Shown one piece after another: positions 6,075 to 47,817 of a stretch of DNA of 64,000 nt. A program made the translations under genes and the position numbers. Under the pieces are notes generated by a model. The model did not search any database. It was given only the letters and a program-made list of their open reading frames with translations, and was not told where the DNA came from. Origin of the DNA: Unio delphinus (lineage: Eukaryota; Mollusca; Bivalvia; Unionida; Unionidae). Within the stretch, counting starts at the first letter, position 1. The number at the start of each line of letters is the position of its first letter. The stretch spans positions 8,440,001 to 8,504,000 of the forward strand of contig JAQISU010001239.1 of NCBI GenBank assembly GCA_029339505.1, given 5' to 3'.

Positions 6075-6344
6075 AGCAGCAGTGGAAAAGAACCCTACAA
6101 CTTTTTCCGACAAAACTGATTGAAGCCTCAAAACGGAAAATAGAGCCTTCCTGCGAATCTCATATTTTAACCAAAAAAATAATAAGTCTCCATTTAGCAA
6201 ACGGAGACTTATCGATTTTTCAATCATTGGGGTCGCACCGATGTTGTCATCGCCCCCTCTGCTGCTACAGGTTAACAAAAATCATAAATGATTTTTCACA
6301 AGGGGTTTTACGATTTCAACCGAATATTTGATCAAGTCGGATAC
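6075..6344 (+). repeat. Left terminal inverted repeat of element 1
   Basis: The reverse complement of this stretch matches 21598-21866. Landmarks include the block with GCAGCAGAGGGGGCGATGAC and the hairpin AAAATCATTTATGATTTT. The inner ~40 bp correspond to the last codons of the packaging ATPase on the right side, so the left repeat carries a fragment of that gene. Similarity fades in the outermost 20 bp except for the terminal AGCAGCAG. Confidence 0.92.
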
Positions 6345-10479: not shown

Positions 10480-10830
10480 CTATGACGATGAAATCTCCAC
10501 GAGGACATTTAATACTTCACGGCCGCATATTGGTGGATCATTTAATTGTTGTGTTGGCAGCGTGGAATAAAAATTCGGAATTGAGTGATTTGATATATAC
10601 CGCATAAACTCGCTCGGTGGGTCTAGCCCATATGAATCGAAATAAACAATCCCACGTGGATCAATCGCGTATGCAACCCAGTGAGTTCCCGATCCGTTAC
10701 TGTTATCAAGATTGATGATACCGGTTTCAACGCGTTTAGGTTTTCTCGGCAATTGATCTATCATAAAAACCCCTCTGAAGTTTTTTATCGCTAGTTTTTT
10801 AGCAGCATCAATTAAATCAAAATTGGACAT
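10480..10830 (-). CDS. Adenain-type cysteine protease (virion maturation)
   Basis: This resembles the adenovirus/Polinton cysteine protease that cleaves capsid precursors during maturation. I chose the ATG at 10830, which opens MSNFDLI, because such proteases start with a similar motif; the frame also stays open 66 bp further upstream. Catalytic positions are present in the right order: His in THWVAY, Asp in YFDSYG, Gln in TQQLND, and the nucleophile Cys in PPICG, with seven residues from Gln to Cys as in adenain. At 116 residues it is shorter than adenain (about 200) but close to minimal Polinton proteases. The C-terminus after ICG is short, so an end-truncation is possible. It follows the pX-like gene by 20 bp. 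The element 2 remnant at 29.9-30.2 kb has lost the His. Confidence 0.85.
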   Translation of the reverse strand: MSNFDLIDAAKKLAIKNFRGVFMIDQLPRKPKRVETGIINLDNSNGSGTHWVAYAIDPRGIVYFDSYGLDPPSEFMRYISNHSIPNFYSTLPTQQLNDPPICGREVLNVLVEISSS

Positions 10831-10850
10831 GGGAAGAATTGGGCTTTCAA

Positions 10851-11313
10851 CTAATAAACCGTTCCTGGGATTCTCAGACCCTTTCCGCTGTACCATGAAT
10901 ACGGGGTTCCTGGTAGTCTTAGACCCTTTCTCTTTTTTTAAATCCTTTCCCAGTTGCCTTTTTCAACGCCATCTCTGCCTCGGTACCAACGGCTCCCAAC
11001 GCCGCCGCTTTCGCCACCTCTGGGGCAGCCGCGGAAATCAATGCTGGTATTGGAGCTAACAATGGAAATATACCACCTGATTTTATCATGTTGGCGATTG
11101 CAGCCTTCGAAAATACAATTTGAACCCCTCGCTGTTTTTTAGCGCATCATTGAAATGTTTTATTTGACGATCCGTCAATGATATTTTATGTGTACCGCCG
11201 GACATCTGCGCTGGTTTCAACGTTATTGTGGTTTCACATTCTTTAGCGGATTTTGATCGCAATTTCTTGACCTGACCATCAGTCAGCTTGACACTAACAA
11301 CACTATATGGCAT
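10851..11313 (-). pseudogene. Small pX-like capsid/core protein, frameshifted
   Basis: The ATG at 11313 opens a basic, Thr-rich N-terminal domain (SVKLTDGQVKKL, later KISLTDRQI). A one-base shift at a T run near 11113 separates it from a glycine/alanine-rich membrane-like segment (GGIFPLLAPIPALI) and a basic tail that repeats GLR(L/I)PGT. The order (basic head with LT.-Q.KL motifs, GG-rich hydrophobic segment, basic tail) is that of the small adenovirus pX-like proteins of Polintons, thought to sit beneath the capsid and help condense DNA or disrupt membranes. The repeat in the tail comes from a ~60-bp tandem duplication (10860-10930). It lies between the capsid and protease genes, as expected for morphogenesis genes. 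Confidence 0.7.
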
Positions 11314-11361: not shown

Positions 11362-12805
11362 TTACATATTTTCCACTGATGCATCAATAAGTCTCAATCG
11401 TCCGCCAACGCCTTCAAGTAACATTGATTTATCACTGAGAATGACAGCAACCGCTCCATAATTAGCAATAGCGCCACGAAGGACATTAGCTCTGAAGTGT
11501 ATATCAACGACGGATTGCCTTGTTAACTCAAGATGCTCCAGCGAAAAGTAGTAGATCGGATACATGGCCTTAAAATCATATTGCGATATTTGCAAATCAG
11601 TATCAACATTTTGATCACGGCCCATATATGACAGCATATGATGGTACACGCGCGCAATATGGTTTTGACCGTAATTAAGTTGTATGTCTTTGGATGGTTC
11701 CTGCTGGCCATTTATTCTCAACGAGACGTCAGTAACTCATATGACTGAGTAATTGTGAATTCACTCTTGTCATATCTTGCAACGCAATAAATATATGACG
11801 TGGAGCTGAAACGCCTAAATGTGATGCCAATTTCCATGTAAATGTACCATTGATATTTGATTGCTTGACATGTGTTGTTGTTGTTAGCCAACGTAGCAAT
11901 GATTTGCCACCCGCGTCCATAAATGATAGTAGTCGCTGTTCTGTGGTAATTGATGGGGTCATTACTGGCATCCACAAGACCAATTTAGTTAAAACGACTT
12001 TACCAGTGTCAGCATCTGGATTTGCAAGATCCGCTGAAATTCTCCAGATTGCATCATCGTCACTACCCTTTTGCACGAGTACTACTGTATGCTTCGCTCC
12101 ATAAATAACTTTTCGTACATTTCTGCAGAATCCAAATATATGATGCAACGGAATCGCACATGAAAACGATCTACGTTGTCCTGCCAACATTGCTATTCGA
12201 GTTGCAGCTCCTAGATTGTACTTGGGATCAGTATTTTTAATCATATTCTCGACATCAACAGCAGCAGTGCCAGCATTATTATTTGGTCGTCGTACAAAAA
12301 ATTGAGTGGATCCAGCGGTGTTTTTATTACATTTTGCAAACATCATAGACTGACCTGCTGATCTTGTATAATCGTCAGAATATCTTGCTAACCCAATTAT
12401 TGTTGTAGCCACATCAACATCACGTTCTATAGACTCAATCTCTTTTCCGTCAATGAGATATCTTGCACTCTCAAATAGCGACATGATACCATTATTGACT
12501 AAGCCGACTTTGGCACCATCTGGATACGGTGCTGGTACAGCAGGAGTATCAGTAAGTTGTACAAGTTCTCCTTCTACTTCGATAAACGCTTCACACGGCA
12601 AAAAGTATTTACTGGTATCATGGACTTGAAGTTCAACTCGCGATCGTAGGTCGGGTTGTATTGCATGATAGGAATAAAATTGATAATCTCGGACGGAATC
12701 GTCTCTGCGCACTGGGGCTTCCATATCAAGCGCGGGATCAGCTGTTCGTTTAAACATTATATTATTCACACTAGTGTTTTCAATTGTGAAACTCTTTGTA
12801 ATCAT
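11362..12805 (-). pseudogene. Major capsid protein (double jelly-roll type), frameshifted
   Basis: This is the Polinton major capsid protein, about 480 codons, which would form the hexon-like shell. The start at 12805 overlaps the stop of the pVI-like gene by four bases (ATGA), a tight operon-like arrangement. N-terminal text is beta-rich with conserved phrases such as EAFIEVEGELV, then RYLIDGKEIES and CAIPLHHIFGF. A single-base shift near 11725-11735 moves the last 119 codons (starting RINGQQEP) into another frame. These carry the typical tail with YPIYYFSLEHLE. Capsid identity rests on this sequence style, gene position and the parallel remnant in element 2 (28.1-29.3 kb), which preserves the same blocks. 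No other break was seen. Confidence 0.85.
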
Positions 12806-13296
12806 CGTCGTTTTCGTTTTCGTTTCAAACCACTTCCTGCTATCGCGTTCATGATATCGCAATCTGTTACCGGCGAAGCCGTCAATGGCGACGGAGTCAC
12901 CGAAGCAGCCAACGACGCTAGTTTTTCTTCCACTGCGCTATTTATTGCTTTGCTGATTTTTGCAGGCATCACTGTCGTTGATGGCAGCACTGGTGGTTTC
13001 ACCACCGACTTCGTCGCTGTTGGTTTCTTTCGCACCAATGATGTTATTTTATCTTTCGCGGCAGAAAATGCCTTTCCGGCAAAATTTCCAACAGCGCTGA
13101 TTCCCTTATCACGAATTATATCAATGGCTTTCATTGATAATTGTTTAGCTAGCGGCGCTGTTTTTGGGGCTATTCTTGTAAATAACCCCGCGATGGTACT
13201 GCCGAGACCATATCCGTACCACGCGCGGTAAACAGGCAATCGTGAGTTCACCACGTAGACGCTTACGGGTTTATCATGGTTGTAGTGTATGATCAT
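12802..13296 (-). CDS. pVI/minor capsid-like protein
   Basis: This is an intact 164-codon gene directly upstream of the major capsid gene. It has a short beta-like head, a glycine-rich start of an amphipathic helix (YGYGLGSTIAGLF), a long helical Ala/Lys-rich body, a Pro/Thr/Val-rich linker and a strongly basic end (GSGLKRKRKRR) that could bind DNA or act as a nuclear import signal. Polintons and adenoviruses carry such a protein (pVI) inside the shell. It is cleaved by the viral protease and disrupts membranes at entry. The assignment is by position and composition, not by catalytic residues. A similar start (LGDAVCGLF) precedes the capsid remnant in element 2. Confidence 0.7.
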   Translation of the reverse strand: MIIHYNHDKPVSVYVVNSRLPVYRAWYGYGLGSTIAGLFTRIAPKTAPLAKQLSMKAIDIIRDKGISAVGNFAGKAFSAAKDKITSLVRKKPTATKSVVKPPVLPSTTVMPAKISKAINSAVEEKLASLAASVTPSPLTASPVTDCDIMNAIAGSGLKRKRKRR

Positions 13297-16592: not shown

Positions 16593-16958
16593 TTAAAAGA
16601 TTCTCTCTTCATTATTTTCTAAATCAAATGATTTGACCCCCCTAGGGCGTTTTGAGTGCCTACAAGCGTTGCTTTTTAAAAGGTTATCGCGTTGCGAGAT
16701 GGATTGTAAATTTGAAGAATGGTTATCAATCTTAATGCCATTTTTATGATCGATAACAAAACCATCTTTGATTGGTCCATGAAATACTTCATAGATTATT
16801 ATGTGATTAAGATATTTCTTCTTCCCGGCACCAAACGTCAATCATCCCATATTATTTACCCGTCCAACCGGTTTCTTTAGTCTGCAATTTCTAACAACAC
16901 CATCATGGGATGCTTCATAATTGACAAGCACCGGATGGGGTCTGAAGTCTTGGCTCAT
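16593..16958 (-). pseudogene. NUMOD4-HNH homing endonuclease remnant
   Basis: The frame starts at ATG 16958 with an N-terminal NUMOD4-like segment (NYEASHDGVVRN) and continues into a compact HNH domain. That domain has the Asp-His pair of VIDHKNG and the Asn-rich helix NHSSNLQSISQRDNL, typical of group-I-intron or phage-type HNH homing enzymes that nick DNA. One in-frame TGA (16844-16842) interrupts it; all else is in frame to the stop at 16593. It is convergent to nothing and lies head-to-head with the polymerase-like remnant, whose N-terminal half is missing. Homing endonucleases commonly invade or flank polymerase genes, so this may mark an old intron or invasion. It was probably inactive or near-inactive when it decayed. 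Confidence 0.75.
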
Positions 16959-17099: not shown

Positions 17100-18412
17100 T
17101 TTGCCGCAACAATTGAGACATAATTGTTACTTCGCAGCACTGAAAACGACACGGATACGTTTGATCAGTTTCTAAGACCAAACGGTGAATTATACCGCAC
17201 TGAAGCATTTCACAACAAAATGAAAAAACAGCTAGTGGGTTTTTAACGGTGGGCGACGGAGTAGCCAGTGGCGAAGCCATAAATAATGAAATTGTCAACG
17301 ATGAACAATTATTGACAAACTGTTTTACAATCCCGTCGGTTGCAGCTCATTTTGCGAGAATCAAAAACGCATAGAAACCAACACGCGCAGAATTCTTGCC
17401 AGACATTGAGGCTAGTTGTTTAGAATTTAATCATGGCGGTTTATGAAATGGAGAGTGTACTGAGTATTTTAAACGATTTGGACACCCCGTACATGAAATG
17501 ACTCGTGTTGCAATTAATGGGCCGCTGCCTGATTTCGATTTAACTGGATTCGCTCGTGTAGTATCATTTGAATTCGCAGCAGGACTTCATCGCGCTTGTT
17601 ATATTTGGATTGGTAGACACATGTCTGAAAAGAAGTAGCTGCCAATAGCGCTATTACGATTCATGATTGATACAAAAATGTTAATTTCGCTGACGGTGAG
17701 TGAAGCAATTATATCATATCGGAAACAAACCAATGTCTGGTTACCAGAACCAGAAAGTCTTGATAGTATAATTGACGAATCCAGAAAACATATTGATGCC
17801 GACGAAAAATATATCATTGAGTGGTCCAAACGGGTATTTAATCAACGAAACAACGAAGCAAAAGATATCGGCAGAAGAATAATTGGAAAATTAACTCAGG
17901 GAGGGAAAAAATGTGACTACAAAAGATATTCTTCACGGTTGATTATAGATATCACCGAATATGACTTTGTAATCGCGGATTCAGTATCTAAAAATATATA
18001 TGTTGATCGTAAGGATGCTTTCTTGTCCGATGAAACAAAATTGGGTACAATTGTTACTTATAACGATGGACACAGTTATTCTTATACACATTTGAGGTCG
18101 TCTATGCTGGGTTATGCTTGTATTAATTTATTTTCAATGACAAAAAGATTTCCTGACACTGCGGTTAGAGTTGCCGTTGATTCATTTTACATTAAAAGCA
18201 AGTACAGTTGCGCAGTTGCTGAATTCACTAATTCGGATGAAAGTTGGGGATCATGGAGAATTAAAAAAGAAATGCTGCGTGATTATTATAAATCAGCAGA
18301 CGTTGAAATTAAAAGTAATTACTTACGCGGTGATCATTTATCAGAGCGTTCTAATGCACCACCGATATCCAATCCAATTTGTAGATATAAAACTGTTTAT
18401 TTAAACGGCTGA
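17100..18412 (+). pseudogene. Polymerase-like region of the polymerase-helicase-HNH protein
   Basis: A decayed frame leads into the helicase. From about 17100 to 17240 a piece in another frame (RPNGELYRTEAFHNKM) is followed by one frame running through TAG 17372, TGA 17444, TAG 17636 and TGA 18410. The clean segment at 17663-18412 has MIDTKMLISLTVSEAI near its start, NEAKDIGRRIIGKL in the middle, and LRSSMLGYACI followed by VRVAVDSFYI. That last phrase could be a variant of the D-(T)-D-S catalytic motif of family B polymerases, with the first Asp missing or replaced. The exonuclease half is absent and only the C-terminal half remains. It could instead be another nucleic-acid enzyme. The fusion to an SF1 helicase in the same frame is what makes polymerase the favoured reading. 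Confidence 0.5.
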
Positions 18413-19290
18413 GGCGGGTCGGGAAAAACGACTCGGGCGATTAAATTATATAGTGGGAAAAATCCTACGGATTTCACAAACATGATTGTGCTGACACCGA
18501 CCCATAGATTAGCGCGAGAGATAAAACAACGAAACGTTGAAGCTTGCACTTATCACAGTTTTTTTCGATACAACGGCGACAAATGGACCCCTGAACGAAT
18601 GGGTGAAACATTCATCCACGCGGATGAGATATGTAGGGTTTTGTTAGATGTATTAAAAATGTTTCTTGATTGGTTGCTGCAAAAGAATACAGCGATGATA
18701 ATGTGTGGAGATCATGGCCAACCACCACCATTTGTCGGCGGGGGTCCACATGATTGGTTAAAAGCGTTTGTTGACTATTATGAAGAAATCGATACCGACT
18801 ATAGGGCACTTGATGAACAATTACGCGAGGTCAAGAAATTAATTAGATTACAACCGGATAGAATCCAATGTGAAATAATCAGAGAAATAATTCCTGAAAC
18901 TCCAATGGAGGAATTTTGGGAAGCATGGAGACCAAACGATTTTGTAGTGGCAAGTAGAAAGATAGTCAGAGACACACTTCAGACAAAGTTGTTTAAGCTT
19001 CACAAAGAAAAATTCCCAATGCGCCCAGTGCCGCTGTGTTATAGACCCTATGATACACGGCGACAGAATATTGAAGTTGAAATTCCAGGACGTGTGACTT
19101 CGTCAGGACCCGAAAGACAAACACTAGTGTTAAATGATATTGTGCTGGTTGATATCAGTGTTGTCGAAGAATTGTTTTCGATGATGACACCACAATGGAT
19201 GATGCTAGCATCGTTGATGTTAAAATTATTGATAAAAAACTATCCAGTTACAAACAACAAGACAAAAAAAACCGAGAATTTGACATTGAT
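18413..19290 (+). pseudogene. SF1 helicase domain, C-terminal motifs missing
   Basis: Directly after the TGA at 18410 comes a Walker A motif (GGSGKTT), then motif Ia (MIVLTPTHRLAREI) and the SF1 motif III region (MIMCGDHGQPPPF), followed by YRALDEQLREVKKL and a DNA-binding middle part to about 19170. These identify a superfamily 1 (Pif1/RecD-like) helicase, which would unwind the element's DNA during replication. The Walker B region (FIHADEI) lacks the preceding hydrophobic strand, as if damaged by a small deletion. Motifs V and VI are not found: the frame degenerates near 19190 and the HNH domain begins almost at once, implying an internal deletion. The same frame continues from the polymerase-like part, so one multidomain protein is likely. 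Confidence 0.7.
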
Positions 19291-19485
19291 GCTGAATTAA
19301 TAATCACTTTGAAGCAACAACAGAATAATCACTGCGCGAGTTGCAATTGTATAATGCGTTGGCAGTATTCGGATAAAGATCCTCGCCAATTTACCGTAGA
19401 CAGAAAAAATAACAGTCTCGGTCATGTCAGAAACAATGTGATCTTGACTTGTCTTGAGTGCAACAGACGCAACGGCGCTAGTTAA
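19195..19485 (+). pseudogene. C-terminal HNH/zinc endonuclease domain
   Basis: This 96-codon piece is in another frame than the helicase. It holds two CxxC pairs (CASC and CLEC) around a TVDRKNNS...NNV core. That is an HNH nuclease fold stabilised by zinc, similar to recombination endonuclease VII-type domains. It was probably the last domain of the polymerase-helicase protein, now put out of frame by the lesion near 19190. Its role could be nicking at replication origins or resolving branched DNA. The stop overlaps the integrase stop (on the opposite strand) by eight bases, giving convergent ends. Confidence 0.7.
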
Positions 19486-20419
19486 GACCTTGCGGCGGCA
19501 ATTGAGTATCGTCAGGTATCACTTGTAGTTGTTTGCGTGTAAAACCCCGCTGAGTGGCAGTTGAATCCAATTTATAGATTGGAGGTCTACCAGTTGATCG
19601 TGTTATAGTAGATATGCTATGCGTAGTGACACTCCAAATAGGATCAGTAGCCCTTTTTTTACCACCTTCGAGTTCTCCTGGTTCATATAAATATCTCACA
19701 GTGACATTGCTGAGAATTGGCTGAGAAACACTATCCCGCTGTGGTTGTGGTATATACTTTTTTTTTATTGCGTTGTTAGGTTTCATAATGATTGCTCTGG
19801 TAATCTCGTTATTTAGCGCTGCAACTACCCCTGGTAACCTTTTGACCCATTCACGGGATCGCTTTTCTTGGATGAATTCTTTTGCGTATTGATATTCAAA
19901 TAACCGCTCAGCAAGAGTCCGATTAAATCGTTCTAAAATTGCCTGATCGCGATGTAGTGCAGTATGCCCCCGTCTAATGGTGACATTGTGATGTTTCATT
20001 GTAGATGCAACCACACCCTGAAATTCCTTGCCAGGATCAACTTGTAACAGATTTGGCCAGCGTAGCGGGCCTCGTCGATAAATCCTTTCAAATGCAGAAG
20101 CAACTTCAGGTGATGATTTTGTTTTTAGTGGTTCTGCTTGTTTGTATCGACTCGCAACATCAACTACGGTTAGCGCGTATTTGTAACCGTTGTCAAGTGG
20201 TAAAAACAATAAATCAGCTTGATGAACTTCATTGGGTCCGGTAACATCAAAATGCGAGAAATTGATTTGTTTAGGACGCGGTAGATAAATTTGTCATATA
20301 GCCTGTTTGGATAACCAATTAGCCGCAGTGGCCTTTTTCACTTTTGAGGCGTTGGCGAGTTTATTGATTGCAGCGTTACCCCTCCAGTATCCTTTTGGAG
20401 AATAATAAATAGATTCCAT
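19478..20419 (-). pseudogene. Retroviral-type (rve) integrase of the Polinton
   Basis: This is the DDE integrase that inserts the element. One frame of 313 codons runs from ATG 20419 with one in-frame TGA (20296-20294). The N-terminal part holds basic, helical text. The catalytic core has Asp in HQADLLFL, Asp in LQVDPGKEF and Glu in QAILERFNRTL, with proper order and a spacing typical of Polinton integrases. The C-terminal part contains Tyr/Arg-rich text ending near PPQGLN. No chromodomain is recognisable. It starts five bases after the PLA2 stop, so the two genes are probably co-transcribed. Except for the TGA the core would be intact. Confidence 0.88.
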
Positions 20420-20423
20420 ATTA

Positions 20424-20948
20424 TTAATTACCAGCGCCCATCATCAATTTGCCTTTCATAGCTGATTTTACCAACCACGAAGCCAATTTTTCTTTGAAAG
20501 ATTTATCAGGAATAGCATTTAACGCATGAATTAATTTCACATCCGCGAGATGCCTGTGTTGCAAATTGCTGCTTTTATATGCAACATCATGAGCATGACA
20601 CGCCTTATCAATGGCGTTTATCGGTTCTTCACCACGTTGAGGTTGATTTTGATCATCAAGTCTGATATCTAATCGTGTTTCGGGGCCACAGTTGCTATAT
20701 CCTGGAAGGTGCTTTTCTCCTGGATACTTTGCCCACGGCGTTCCAGGGAGTTTTACTAACTTGGCTGCGATATCACCTCCTCGTTTTTCTTAAAAACATC
20801 TCCGGATTTCATAGAAACAAATCTAAATTTTTTTTATACCACATGTTGCACATCTACCAGTAAGTGCAGATCTGTTATTGCTAGTTGTAATCGTCGTCAC
20901 ATCATTTGTGCTAGTACTCGTTTTACACTTCACACAATATAGATCCAT
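20424..20948 (-). pseudogene. Zinc ribbon-phospholipase A2 fusion, two stops
   Basis: One frame of 174 codons runs from ATG 20948 to TAA 20426-20424, broken by TAG (20825-20823) and TAA (20792-20790). Residues 5-37 hold a zinc ribbon (CVKC ... CATC). The C-terminal part is a parvovirus/Polinton-type PLA2: a Ca-binding loop-like GYSNCGPET, then ACHAHDVAY with the catalytic His-Asp pair, then HLADVKLI. PLA2 in such elements is thought to open endosomal membranes during entry. The short gene before the first stop could also stand alone as a 41-residue zinc ribbon. It sits divergently, six bases from the ATPase start, and just upstream of the integrase. Confidence 0.75.
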
Positions 20949-20953
20949 AATTT

Positions 20954-21625
20954 ATGTATAGAGATATGAATATAATTGATTTTGCAGCGACTAAAACACG
21001 AGAACCAGTTAAGCATCATGCAGCGCTACCAAACTCTATCCGCGCAATTATAATCAGGCCATCTGGATCCGGCAAGACGCAATTGCTGCTCAATTTAATA
21101 ATGAGATGGATGAAGTGGGATAAGTTGTATTTAGTTGCTCCTAGCGTAGATGATCAACGATGCTATGAAGTGTTAAAGGATTTTAACGAGAATGCATCAG
21201 AAATTAAAGGTGAGAACGTCATTGATTTTATAACTGATATGGACGAGGCACCATCCGTGGATGACCTTGATGGTAGCATTAATAATTTAGTCGTATACGA
21301 CGATGTGATGTTAGACAATCAAGAAAACCCAGCTAGAATATTTTCCCGAGGCAGGCATAAAAACACCGACGAGATATGTGTCAATCAACGCTACACTCAG
21401 ATTCCAAAAGTGATCAGAGATAACTGTAATATTCTTGCTGTATTCAACGGCTTTGATACACATACGCTACGAAATATTTGGCAGACATGGTGCTCTGATA
21501 TGGACTTCAATCAATTTCGAAATTTCTTTAGTCATGCTCAGTCGACCCCACACGGATTTATAACAATAAATTTACATGATCCTAGAACACGATATCGTGT
21601 CGGACTTGATCAAATATTCGGTTGA
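20954..21625 (+). CDS. FtsK/A32-type DNA-packaging ATPase
   Basis: This intact 223-codon gene is the only unbroken enzyme besides the protease. Walker A is RPSGSGKTQLLL, where the usual leading Gly is Arg (GPSGSGKT is expected). Walker B is NLVVYDDVML. A sensor-like segment RYTQIPKVIRDNCN follows. Together they identify the A32/FtsK-HerA-like packaging ATPase that pumps the genome into the capsid. Length is normal for Polintons. Its last ~10 codons lie within the right inverted repeat, so the left repeat carries a copy of them. The start is at ATG 20954; a second ATG nine bases later is possible. The Arg substitution may reduce activity, or may be tolerated. Confidence 0.88.
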   Translation: MYRDMNIIDFAATKTREPVKHHAALPNSIRAIIIRPSGSGKTQLLLNLIMRWMKWDKLYLVAPSVDDQRCYEVLKDFNENASEIKGENVIDFITDMDEAPSVDDLDGSINNLVVYDDVMLDNQENPARIFSRGRHKNTDEICVNQRYTQIPKVIRDNCNILAVFNGFDTHTLRNIWQTWCSDMDFNQFRNFFSHAQSTPHGFITINLHDPRTRYRVGLDQIFG

Positions 21626-21866
21626 AATAGTAAAAACCCTTGTGAAAAATCATTTATGATTTTTGTTAACCTGTAGCAGCAGAGGGGGCGATGACAACAT
21701 CGTTGCGACCCCGATGATTGAAAAATCGCTAAGTCACCGTTTACCAAATGGAGACTTATTTTTGTTTTGGTTAAAACATGAGATTCGTAGGAAGGCTCTA
21801 TTTTCCGTTTTGAGGATTCAATCAATTTTGTCGGAAAAAGTTGTAGGGTTCGCCTCCTCTGCTGCT
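21598..21866 (-). repeat. Right terminal inverted repeat of element 1
   Basis: Matches the reverse complement of 6075-6344 with about 20 differences over ~250 bp by eye. The outer end is CTGCTGCT, complementary to the left AGCAGCAG start. The inner part encodes the last codons of the packaging ATPase. Confidence 0.92.
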
Positions 21867-22599: not shown

Positions 22600-24480
22600 C
22601 AGCAACTGCTCACCAGCCATGACTTATACTATGGTGGAATCAGTGACAACCCACAGCTAATAATAATGCCAGAACCAGATAGAAACATTTTCAAATACAC
22701 CACCGTACAACGAAAGATGAAAGTGTCTTATGTAAACTATGCGAACTGAATATTTGAACATTCAGTAGAATGCTCTTGTTTCCAAGACGTCCAGCTATGC
22801 TTCCAATGTATTACAAGTCACTTAATGAATCACATTTGGGTCCTGTAATGTAGCAGTTAGGTGTGATGGACAAACAGTAACCAGTCCTTTATGGTGCTCA
22901 GAGCGCGAATGCTCTTATTACATTTTAGGTGTTTCTCAAATCGATCGAATATACCGCGAAATGAATTAAACAGAAGCTCTAATCACTAACATTGGTAATT
23001 ACAAAAGCACCATTTTTTTCCCGCGAGCATACATGATTATGACCCGCGATAACATTGGTGAGTTTTCTGAATCTGTGACATTTACTTCCACCGATGTTAA
23101 CGTCCGTGACCATTGGTAGGGGTTATTTACAAAGACCAAAAAAATCCCTATACTGCTGGATAACTTGGGTAGGTACCATGATCACTTGACAATGCAAGCA
23201 GTAACCATGTCATCAGGTTCACCGATATGTGTTATCTTGAACAATTCAATTACATTTAGGCAAAGCAAACAGATTCGTTAATCCTGAGTGCGGCCTTGAA
23301 ACAATCTAACAGCGTATAACTTTGTAATCACTTGCAAATATTGTTCAATTAGTGTTGACCTGTTAACGAGAAAAAGTATACATCCGTACGAGTACAAAAG
23401 CGAAGAGGACAGATGTTTCTAAAAATCAGTTGCGGCCAATCAAAGCGTTTTATTCATCGCTGTCACGCGGAGGTATCTCAGAAAAATAACACGAACACAC
23501 TAGCAATGCTTGGTCTTCATTTGAATGTGAAAACCCGAAACGACTATCAAAGTCTGTATTTGCGCACTAATGACATAATATTTGCTGTTGACTTGGATAA
23601 ATACCATGACAATGTCATGCACGTGTACAAGCTCGATTCGGTGCATTACTTCTTGTCAGGGGATATTGGTTGGGATTTTCTACTGTCCCAAACTAACATT
23701 GACCTAGAATCATATTTCAAGCCTTGTTATGGATTTCATTGGATTGAACCTGCGAATGTACAAAAACACATGCATGATCAAAACATTAACAGTGACCACG
23801 AAAATGCCTTTTGCAATTGACCTTGAATATATATCCCAAATATATACACGATACAAACATACATTATCTGCTACCATTATATGTGTTTTCAGTCCCTGTT
23901 ACTTGGTTTTACACATATCAGTGCGCGATTGTTAATGAATCTGGACGTAACAACACTGAGCGTGAGCTGTGAAACCAATGAATGTTGGATCTTCCGTGCT
24001 GGACTTATCAAAGCTGCTGACATACAATTTCTGCTATGACAAGATCAGACAGTTTAACCGGTATACCGACACTGACTCGTTGCTGATGCGACACGTTTGG
24101 TAAATGAATTTAATATCAGCTAGTATCCTAAAAAAACACTCGTTATGTAGCAACGCCAATGAAAAGGTTGTTCCAAAGTTCAATGACAAATGCTCTGGTA
24201 AACCATTTGAGGATAATATGAGACTCCGATAAATTATGTACTCTAATTTAGCCGAACTGCAAAGCGATCTCATCTCCAAGAACATTAAAAAGGCTAAAGG
24301 TGTTTAACGGGCGATTGTGCAAAAGGATATAAACACAAATGTACGTGGAATTTCTTCGAGTCCGACGTGAATTTGTACAGAAGGCAAATGTGATACAGTA
24401 CCAGAAACATCGCATGAGTGTTTACCAATGTACTAAAGTGAGTTTAATATCAAGCGTTATCAACACGTACGCGTTTTGCC
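22600..24480 (+). pseudogene. Protein-primed family B DNA polymerase, decayed
   Basis: Scattered in all three + frames are the landmarks of Polinton polymerase B. A RYHDHLTMQA segment (exonuclease Asp block) is near 23171 and PYEYKSEED near 23385. A clean 135-codon stretch (23413-23820) contains the exonuclease-proximal phrase TRNDYQSLYLRT. After it come pieces of the palm, YTDTDSLL at 24062-24085 (the catalytic Asp pair) and KKAKGV near 24285. The end is about 24480. Dozens of stops and indels are present. This enzyme would replicate the element from a terminal protein. Element 1 has no comparable gene. Confidence 0.8.
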
Positions 24481-28079: not shown

Positions 28080-29270
28080 ACCTCGCAATGGAGAGTGAAT
28101 TACAAATGAGGACGAGAGTGGTATTTTTTAAAATCATTAATATACAAGTGAAAACTAATGTCTCACCATGCCGCAATTCAAATATATTTCTGATCTTTTA
28201 TTTGACGTGGGTTAAGCTGTTTTATTTGATCAACGTAAAAATGATTGTTGGTATTATTCATACCCGACTAAGGACGACGATCAATTTAAATTATAAGTGC
28301 CCAACACGTCTAGGTTTTACTTCCATATGAGGCTTTCTTGGATGTTGATGGAGAACTGCTACAGGGTGATGCCTATTATTATGGGCATGCCCGAGTTGGA
28401 TTCATCCACAGTTGAATCATGGCGTAGTTCAAAACAGCACGTTATCCTATCGATTAAAAGGAAATTGAACCATTTCCTAACACCACTGACGTAGCCACAG
28501 CCATTCGTGGACTTAGGATATATAGCGATGATAATACGAGAACAGATGGTTAAATAATGATGTTTGTTAAAGATAAAGTTAATTAGGTACATTAAAACCT
28601 TTACTATTGGAAACGTTAGAAACGCTGTAAAAGATTCACACACGTAACTGTAATTAGAGCCAATGCTAATTTCAATATTGTATTTGAACCGCGTCGATTG
28701 CAGCTCGTTGGAAATTCTTTGAGGTTTTCATGAGCGATTCCTCTTTTTCATATCTTTGGTTTTTTTCAGAGATGTTCGCAAAAACAACGCCGAAGATGCA
28801 ATGTGGGATACAGGTGGTGTTGCTAGAAATGTTCAGTGTTCAATACTGACGTTGTGTATGCCTACGTTGTCTCCTTCACTGACTACAGAATCACGTTGTC
28901 CTCGTATATGTAGTCGGGAACCACACCTAGCAAATGCTAGTGTGGTGGACAATTTACATAGCAAATAATGTCTTTTGACATCAAAGCATGTGTTTTTGGC
29001 ATTTCAAATTGTACATTGAGACGAAACAAATTATATTTTAGACATTGAGAATAACTGATTTCTTTTTCTTTGATTAAACGGTCATTAGGAAACTTTTGAA
29101 GACATTCGTCTGGACTATGCATAAGGTACTTCTTATAGTGCACGTGCATATCACAATATGTGGTAGTACATGGACAAGCATCAAAACGTTGACACGAATC
29201 TGCAAAATTTTCCAACCGGATTTTCCTTCGCTGTAGCTGATTTCTTACTTTTCAATGGAACACTACAATA
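28080..29270 (+). pseudogene. Major capsid protein remnant (element 2)
   Basis: Blocks collinear with the element 1 capsid protein can be read across frames: EAFLDVDGELLQ near 28329, RIYSDDNTR near 28507, AIPLFHIFGFF near 28730, LCMPTLSPSLTTES near 28850, and a C-terminal piece with SARAYHNMW and DKHQNVDTN near 29150. Spacing is like the capsid gene of element 1. Many stops and indels make it non-coding. A 92-codon frame on the opposite strand (28937-29215) is a shadow of this remnant. Confidence 0.75.
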
Positions 29271-29929
29271 TATTTAGGCAATCTGTTATTGACATGTATC
29301 TTCTGTTATTGGAAGGTGCTGGTGACCAAATGATGGCAATCGATGCTCCTTTGGAACAATTATAATTAATCTGCTATATATTTATCAATAATGTCAGATC
29401 AAGAAGTGATTTTCGGCTTTTGTAAAAATCAGTTAGAATAAGTACAATACACGCAATCAAGCACAAATGTGGATTCACACTGAAACTCAAACACAGCTCG
29501 CACAGCTTAAAGCAGCTAAATATGATTATCTAAGTGGCAGAATATCCAAGTCAGAGGTAAGGTAACACATATGCAAAAGACCGGAGGAATATTTCCACTC
29601 CTTTCAGCGATTCAGCGTTATTGGCGGAAGCAACGCAGCCTATTGAAAAGCTACAGAACTGCATCTGGGATTGCACTGAGAAAAGGCAATTGGTGGTGAC
29701 ATCGAACGAAAATGCCTTCGATTACCGCGAACGAGTCGTCGAGTTCCCATTAAAGGTATTCAATTACTCGATCGGAGAAAATCTTGCCGTTATACAATCT
29801 TGTTTACTCGCGAGGGCAAAAGCAAAAATAAACAACATTTTCTTTGGATGTCTATGCGAACTAAACTTGCATCGATTGTACCACTCACACTTTTAAACCA
29901 GCATTGCCAACCTGGATTTAACAGCAGGA

Positions 29930-46010: not shown

Positions 46011-46385
46011 TCGTCCTTATATGATGTACAAACTTCTTCATATTAAGGAGCAAAATCAGAACTTGTGCAGACGCAAAGTTGTCAAGCAGTCTTTTGACAA
46101 AGGTAGGTTGGTCGATTTAAACATCTTTGCTCCACGATGATATGCTTATAGGAAATACATAGTCTGCCGTTTTGAATTATGACGTTGCCACATCCAGTTT
46201 TTATTTTGCAGTTTCCAATACCAAACCATGTTTATATGTCGTTTTGCAACATGAACTAGATAGCAATTTACATAATCTATGAGTTTAATTTGAATCTTGA
46301 TTAACAAAATTAGACATTCATGAAATGTAACTATTATATTAGCATCAAAACAGGAGCTGAAAACAGTCATTTTTCAATAACAATA
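46011..46385. other. No gene recognised
   Basis: Short sequence between the broken LINE and the purine block. Frames on both strands are short and featureless. Confidence 0.4.
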
Positions 46386-46386
46386 T

Positions 46387-46388
<2 letters not shown>

Positions 46389-46422
<34 letters not shown>

Positions 46423-47220
46423 AGAGGTGGAGAGGAGGAGATAGAGGGGGAGAAAGAGAGCGAGAGGGACAGAGAGAGAGAGAGGGAGAAGGATAGAGGG
46501 ATAAGGGGGAGAGAGAGAAGGGGAGAGGGGTGAGAAAGGGGGGAGAAAGGGAAAGAGAGGGAGAGAGAGGGAGCGAGAGAGAGAGGGAGAGATGGAGAGA
46601 GTGAGGGAGAGTGGGAGAGGGGGATAGAGAGGAGAAGAGAGAGAGAGAGAGAGGAAGAGGGAGAGGGAGAGCGGGAGAGGGAGAGAAGGAAAGGGAGAGG
46701 AAGAAGTAGAGAGGGAGAGAGGAGAGGGAGAGAGGAGAGGGAGAGGGGGAGAGGGGGAGAGAGAGGGGGAGAGATGTGGAGAGGATGAGAGAGAGGGGGA
46801 GAAAGAGAGGGAGAGGGACAAAGAGAGAGAGAGAGGGAGAAGGAAAGAGGGATAAGGGGGAGAGAGAGAGGGGGAGAGGGGAAGAGAGGGGTAGAGAGAG
46901 GGAGAGAGAGGGAGAGAGAGAGGGAGAGAGATGGAGAGAGAGGGGGACAGGTGGAGAGGAGGAGAGGGGGAGAGAGAAGAGAAGAGAGGGGAAGAGTGAG
47001 AGTAAGAAGGAGAGGGAGAGCGGGAGAGGGAGAGGGAGAGCGGGAGAGGGAGAGGGAGAGAGGGAAAGGGAAAGGGAGAGGAAGAGGGAGAGAGGGAGAG
47101 AGGAGAGGGAGAGGGGGAGAGAAAGGGGAGAGAGGGGAGAGAGAGGAGGAAAGAGAGAGGGGAGAGTAGGGATGGGAGAGGGGGAGAGGTAGAGAGGGAG
47201 GGGGGAGATAGAGATGGGAA
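46389..47220. repeat. Purine block: degenerate GA/GGA minisatellite, ~830 bp
   Basis: Almost pure A/G on the + strand (GAGAG, GGGAGA and GGAGAGGGAG units). The long frames on either strand (Arg/Glu-rich on +, Ser/Leu/Pro-rich on -) are products of the repeat, not genes. Such mirror-repeat tracts can form triplex DNA. Confidence 0.95.
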
Positions 47221-47817
47221 GAGGAATGAATTGAGGATATTCAGGTTATAAAACTAAAGAACGTTTATCGTTTCAATATCGCAATTGTGACAAATTATGA
47301 TAGAAACTACCCTTTCGCAACATCCAGATATCATTCAATAGATATAATGTTTTTCATTTTGCATCATAGGAAAACACTTTTCTTTATCAATCAATATCAA
47401 CACGTGTCTGTTTGTTGTATATAGACATTTCGCATATACGACTAATTTTTAACGCTTTACAGAAATGGAAAGACGCTTGTTTTGAGTTTACCAGAAATGT
47501 TATAACCTTTACGAGTTCCAACCAAATTTCATTTTGTCTGCATCCTCATAAATCATTGCGTAGTTTAATCCTGGCAAACCGTAAATTATGATTATTGACA
47601 TTTGTCTAGATAATGAATAAAATATAAATATATGATTTTGTTTCTTCAAATATGAATCATCGAAGTGGGTTACAATGTTGCATATAATTAGTTGTACGTT
47701 TAAAGACAGATTGTTCTGTAGCAATCGTAAGAATACAGAAATTGGTCACAGTAGTAAGGGTCCAGTATTTCAATGGCTTAAACATTCAGAAGTTGTGTCA
47801 CGTCTTTTTTCCTACAG
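47221..47817. other. Intronic sequence before exon 3
   Basis: No gene. It ends in a pyrimidine-rich TTTTTTCCTACAG acceptor. Confidence 0.5.

Follow-up and report, generated by a model that had tools for sequence, protein, structure and literature searches.

The 64,000-nucleotide stretch of Unio delphinus DNA analysed here (the window; assembly GCA_029339505.1, contig JAQISU010001239.1, positions 8,440,001 to 8,504,000) contains a Polinton-type mobile element, element 1, delimited by terminal inverted repeats (TIRs) at 6075-6344 and 21597-21866. The replication block of this element, at 17145-19485, is, with a probability of about 0.9, the decayed replicase gene of one member of a high-copy Polinton-type lineage, encoding a protein-primed DNA polymerase B (pPolB) fused to a superfamily 1 (SF1) helicase (S1H), with a C-terminal HNH nuclease domain. 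The protein would comprise an N-terminal region, a protein-primed-type family-B palm apparently devoid of the exonuclease, an SF1B helicase of the Pif1/RecD2/Dda kind, and the HNH domain. A preliminary description of this DNA had proposed that element 1 shows no pPolB, that, if the block is original, the replication module had been exchanged, and that this would not be a type known to have been described. None of these three proposals is supported, since the polymerase part is itself a derived protein-primed-type family-B palm, as indicated by predicted folds and by the motif A and second motif C aspartates kept in relatives, and since the combination of a pPolB palm, S1H and HNH or GIY-YIG has been described as the Tlr1-like helicase (PMC11071308).

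The Fusion Gene in the Window Copy

The plus-strand frame 2 between 17204 and 19300 (699 codons) is interrupted by five stops (17372, 17444, 17636, 18410 and 19298); each of the five remaining frames has between 29 and 76. The motifs first reported for this block (VDS, GGSGKTT, CGDHGQPPP and an out-of-frame HNH) are all present. The further statement that one frame joins the polymerase-like part and the helicase is right in that both share this frame, although in the window copy they are joined only across stop codons. The gene can be divided as follows:

17145-17371, plus strand: N-terminal remnant, in two frames (17145-17228; from 17240); tblastn with P0023 gave 46% at 17145-17228 and 44% over 17240-18604.
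17375-17635, plus strand: start of the palm, with in-frame stops at 17444 and 17636; the motif A block of relatives is missing right after 17444 (tblastn alignments to P0020, P0023 and P0040).
17639-18409, plus strand: later part of the family-B polymerase palm, with a motif B-like IIGK, motif C VAVDS at 18170-18184 and an in-frame stop at 18410.
18413-19297, plus strand: SF1B helicase (AAA_19, P0012, P0016 model), with Walker A GGSGKTT at 18413-18433 and CGDHGQPPP at 18704-18730; the frame is lost before the end.
19153-19485, plus strand: C-terminal nuclease domain of the HNH type, read in the window in another frame than the helicase (PHROG endonuclease VII/HNH, best 2e-9).

The palm piece matches database proteins with E-values down to 3.2e-110. 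The helicase region is matched by the homolog P0012 (85% over 225 residues; E 1e-162), and the helicase open reading frame (ORF) starting at 18482 by Pfam AAA_19 (1.5e-5). No Pfam HNH family matched the HNH of the fusion gene, which corresponds to the C-terminus of the fusion homolog P0017 (residues 560-647; 51%, 1e-22). Judged by these alignments, the similarity of the block to its homologs is not due to chance. Rfam gave nothing at gathering thresholds.

Homology to relatives starts at about 17145, and most of the N-terminal region seen in other copies has been lost from the window copy, as have the motif A block and, in the helicase, four residues preceding the DE of Walker B. Taking into account these losses, the in-frame stops and the out-of-frame HNH, the window copy is decayed and non-functional.

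Conserved Motifs and Predicted Folds

Polymerase motif C followed by Walker A in one ORF was found, by pattern, in 59 of 122 homologs, and in homologs and window alike the palm is N-terminal to the helicase, that is, the polymerase comes first. At the first position of motif C, the 20 alignment rows with letters there have Ala (17), Thr (two) or Ser (one), the catalytic Asp being missing, and all 20 keep the second Asp. The motif A Asp is kept in the seven rows of alignment A4 that have a letter at this place, and the motif A pattern is present in 15 of 20 genome copies.

The predicted palm folds of homologs are those of protein-primed-type family-B polymerases, with a structural match to the Mavirus pPolB (E 5.9e-5). 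The structural match to phi29 begins at phi29 residue 233, residues 1-160 of the model being of low confidence, and no exonuclease family was found in the 858-aa ORF of one genome copy (L016). For homolog P0016, the helicase model finds its matches in RecD2, Dda and Pif1; when the helicase model was compared with viral structures, no transpoviron protein appeared among the 50 shown.

Copies of Element 1 in the Same Genome

A search of the 2.505-Gb assembly with the fusion protein gave at least 133 matches, 81-100% identical, a lower bound, as scoring covered 133 of 48,679 first-look candidates. Between rows 2 and 116, one row in six was sampled (20 of the 133 matches, 10 kb each) and screened by tblastn with pieces of the window at E 1e-4; all 20 copies were thus picked by the helicase, and copies without the block would not be seen. 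Palm and helicase were matched in all of them, the HNH domain, the integrase and the phospholipase A2-like domain (PLA2) in 19 each, a separate HNH_3 gene in 18, and the capsid gene in 17. The misses concern L011 (HNH, integrase and PLA2), L014 and L022 (HNH_3), and L017, L022 and L025 (capsid); in L019 and L026 the capsid gene is matched over short stretches. Wherever the genes are present their order is identical, with the capsid gene upstream and the integrase downstream of the block, except for pieces of neighbouring elements in L011 and L022. Among six stretches covering the right end, both the packaging ATPase and the repeat were found, oriented as expected, in five, and neither in L032. 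Copies with longer open frames than that of the window exist: in some of them palm and helicase, or palm, helicase and HNH, lie in one open frame, and in L021 a single frame is open from motif C to the HNH.

The genes and repeats of element 1 outside the fusion gene are:

6075-6344, plus strand: left TIR, 270 nt, 93% complementary to 21597-21866.
10483-10962, minus strand: adenovirus-type cysteine protease, a weak match (Peptidase_C5 0.0096, under the curated cut-off).
11365-12937, minus strand: double jelly-roll major capsid protein (MCP) gene (PF21738 7.8e-10; 60 homologs).
16596-16841, minus strand: HNH_3 endonuclease of the homing type, encoded by a gene of its own just upstream of the fusion (PF13392 2.2e-12).
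19478-20293, minus strand: RVE integrase (Pfam rve 3.4e-5, below the curated cut-off).
20427-20789, minus strand: PLA2 (PF08398 2.7e-10).
20951-21625, plus strand: A32-type packaging ATPase (Pox_A32 9e-8).
21597-21866, minus strand: right TIR, partner of 6075-6344; also present at the right end of five of six other copies checked.

The integrase of L016 gave an rve match of 8.5e-6, and the protease was matched in L019 and L029, the sampled stretches long enough to include its place. In element 1, the HNH frame of the fusion gene and the integrase frame overlap tail-to-tail by 8 bp (19478-19485). This overlap, the same gene order in the 20 sampled copies, and the same repeat and ATPase in five of six support the conclusion that the block is native to a Polinton-type lineage, as its replication module, and did not arrive as a nested insertion. 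An original block had been considered in the preliminary description, which suggested searching for relatives with both the fusion and a Polinton capsid gene within the same repeat-bounded element; in the copies of this genome, the fusion and a Polinton-type capsid gene do lie together in one such element.

No polymerase family, and hence no stand-alone standard pPolB (exonuclease plus palm), was found among the ORFs of element 1 scanned, not every short frame being included. For this reason element 1 is called Polinton-type and not a Polinton in the strict sense. The region from 6.4 to 11.3 kb is mostly occupied by long frames of other genes, among which a 3-kb polymerase would hardly fit. 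Inspection of the flanks by eye revealed no target-site duplication beside the repeats, whose exact ends are unsure in this old copy. Between 8648 and 9924, minus-strand genes of element 1 contain repeated segments of 51-292 bp, 77-90% identical, read as a protein with internal repeats.

Elsewhere in the window, a second, decayed double jelly-roll capsid gene (28177-29362, plus strand) is 29-42% identical in pieces to P0123, and therefore a second degraded Polinton-type element is present. At 46345-47253, long spurious frames are opened by an extended simple repeat, rich in GA and of extreme GC skew. A weak resemblance to a helicase at 24262-24405 (best E 0.001 among 122 queries), lacking the conserved WDE, was dismissed as fortuitous.

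A Standard-pPolB Lineage in the Same Genome

A further lineage of this genome carries the standard polymerase. PF03175 matched 150 times in the 75 places scored out of 3467 candidates; most of these places have open frames of 1361-1362 aa, and the palm of this lineage carries the DTDS motif. The frame after the standard pPolB appears BIR-like. Among the matches listed, no PF03175 place coincides with a fusion place; where both occur on one contig, they lie about 0.5 Mb apart at the closest, and no PF03175 place is on the contig of the window. The one standard-pPolB copy examined has its own ATPase and integrase, 24% and 28% identical, respectively, to those of element 1. Taking into account these identities and the lack of coinciding places, both lineages are regarded as separate.

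The standard lineage, represented by L036 and L040-L043, is young, three copies being 99% identical over 3.1 kb. The examined copy adjoins a decayed capsid gene and protease, about 60% identical to those of element 1. A module exchange was considered at L040 (capsid gene at 1092-2528, 60% identical to that of element 1) and rejected: the element sequence common to two other copies starts only at about L040:3412, so that this capsid gene lies outside the standard element and is part of another, decayed one.

Alternative Explanations

It might be argued that the block came as a mobile element of its own, inserted into a Polinton whose earlier polymerase B was of the standard kind. The ragged left border of the window copy (frame change and N-terminal loss) would fit such an origin, as would the existence of another lineage with standard pPolB, the absence of HNH, integrase and PLA2 after the block in L011, and the three stretches without a capsid match. 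Nevertheless, palm and helicase have the same place and order in every sampled copy, with the integrase downstream in all but one, the crowded left part of element 1 could hardly have housed the polymerase, and the standard-pPolB element examined has its own, distant integrase and ATPase, all of which makes a nested insertion highly improbable. No copy of this lineage lacking the block and showing a clean empty site was seen among the 20 sampled, all chosen for holding the block.

More serious, though still unlikely, is the explanation that in the whole lineage the palm has lost its activity, so that the protein acts only as a helicase-nuclease and DNA is synthesised by the host or by a co-resident standard pPolB. 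Motif C has indeed lost its first catalytic Asp, the standard lineage (75 scored places) could provide a polymerase in trans, and the authors of PMC11071308 had earlier held such palms to be inactive. However, the same authors now predict an active palm and list active enzymes without this Asp, and the conservation of the motif A Asp and pattern and of the second motif C Asp speaks against a relic. The interpretation as a fused pPolB also has to face several contrary results: Pfam detects no polymerase family in any fusion piece nor in the 858-aa ORF of L016, a sequence search of solved structures (PDB) found no polymerase, whole-model TM-scores to phi29 are low (0.26-0.28), and the N-terminal region, where the Tlr1-like helicase kind has terminal-protein-like and vOTU domains, is mostly lost in the window and gave no Pfam hit in L016, in which it has an IDHNEHAW stretch common to other copies. 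In addition, membership in the Tlr1-like helicase kind would be by architecture, resting on domain order and motifs. The lack of polymerase matches in Pfam and among solved structures could also suggest a new polymerase unrelated to family B, but given the predicted folds this is the least probable of the three alternatives, slightly behind the nested insertion.

Relatives in Other Organisms

Named matches to the fusion come from the bivalve Sinanodonta woodiana, the sea slug Elysia marginata, metagenome-assembled genomes (MAGs) of Candidatus Thiodiazotropha, and the fungi Paraglomus, Racocetra and Gigaspora. Two of the Candidatus Thiodiazotropha MAGs carry host-clam names, and the matches in these MAGs are likely clam DNA. 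A helicase tree was built with 44 rows, the window and those 43 of 97 matches whose coverage was about 150 residues or more. In it the window clusters with P0012, P0014, Sinanodonta and P0015 (support 100/99), the rows of Elysia and Thiodiazotropha belong to a different set, and Paraglomus is on a long branch; the nearest named relative of the fusion is in a bivalve. Sinanodonta was also matched in the capsid search (60% over 62% of the query).

Searches of viral_contigs with the fusion pieces, their alignments and the capsid protein confirmed no relative, and phage records gave one match, restricted to the helicase. In genome_contigs, one decayed piece of the fusion gene (L001) was observed in a MAG filed as a Candidatus Diapherotrites archaeon, probably misbinned eukaryotic contamination.

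Proposed Mechanism and Significance

Replication would start with a protein primer at the ends of the linear, TIR-bounded genome. The palm would then extend the new strand, while the fused helicase would run on the displaced strand and open the duplex; such SF1B helicases translocate in the 5' to 3' direction. The copied element would be inserted by the RVE integrase, and the HNH domain may either serve replication as a nickase or be carried along as a homing-type passenger. The helicase could make up for the lost exonuclease, as has been proposed in PMC11071308.

The odds appear even that animals, and above all bivalve molluscs, carry a large, unnamed Polinton-type lineage with a pPolB-SF1 helicase-HNH replicase, present in more than 100 copies beside a standard-pPolB lineage and having replicase kin in arbuscular mycorrhizal fungi. 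If so, this kinship would need either an inter-kingdom transfer of the module or a very old shared origin. Most published cases of the fusion design concern unicellular hosts and the viruses of these; what may be new is its occurrence in animals, its copy number, its coupling to a gene set of animal type and the presence of a standard lineage beside it. Thus, a replicase design known from protists would be extended towards animals, and a genome with both lineages would allow a side-by-side test of whether the fused helicase compensates for the lost exonuclease. Moreover, a Polinton-type element in which no polymerase is found can be one whose reshaped polymerase was missed by profile searches.

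Comparison with Known Systems

The Tlr1-like helicase, a fusion that PMC11071308 credits to a 2016 paper, lacks the first motif C Asp and occurs in Polinton-like viruses (PLVs), Tlr1 and transpovirons. Cryptophyte PLVs have SF1-GIY-YIG fusions, and also HNH units fused N-terminally to helicases (PMC12220804). In PMC10120064, elements without a detectable polymerase have helicases fused to an unknown domain, and a reshaped polymerase is suspected for protist elements. Taken together, the excerpts of the papers cited here and of PMC4028283, PMC3671162, PMC4642659, PMC7805220, PMC10328495 and PMC11071296 place the fusion in protist elements, PLVs and transpovirons, and none of them in an animal element. 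Likewise, no pPolB-SF1 helicase fusion from an animal element was found in the literature searched, whose coverage was partial and did not include the 2016 fusion paper. HelPol (PMC11071296) was dropped as an identity, its authors likening the enzyme to PolBc and Pol-delta.

Standard Polintons/Mavericks (adintoviruses) share with element 1 the TIRs, the RVE integrase, the A32-type ATPase and the double jelly-roll capsid protein, but their pPolB has an exonuclease and a palm with DTDS, and no fused helicase. Mavirus pPolB, which has lost most of the exonuclease, resembles the fusion in its palm, in the missing first motif C Asp and apparently in this loss; however, as described in PMC11071308, its helicase is a separate SF3 gene and no SF1 helicase is fused. 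The Helicase SF1-pPolB of OmPLV from the dinoflagellate Oxyrrhis marina also joins an SF1 helicase to a protein-primed polymerase B, although in reversed order, with the helicase first and the exonuclease kept, in an element reported to have a tyrosine recombinase and no detected RVE integrase (PMC12721341), whereas in element 1 the polymerase comes first.

With the Tlr1-like helicase, the replicase of element 1 shares the protein-primed-type palm, the C-terminal Pif1/RecD-type SF1 helicase, the C-terminal homing nuclease and the missing first Asp of motif C. Tlr1 itself has the order palm-helicase-GIY-YIG (PMC12721341) and, according to the excerpt of PMC4028283, no protease, whereas the nuclease of element 1 is an HNH. 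Element 1 departs from this kind by its high copy number and by a gene set like that of animal Polintons, with PLA2 and a weak match to an adenovirus-type protease.
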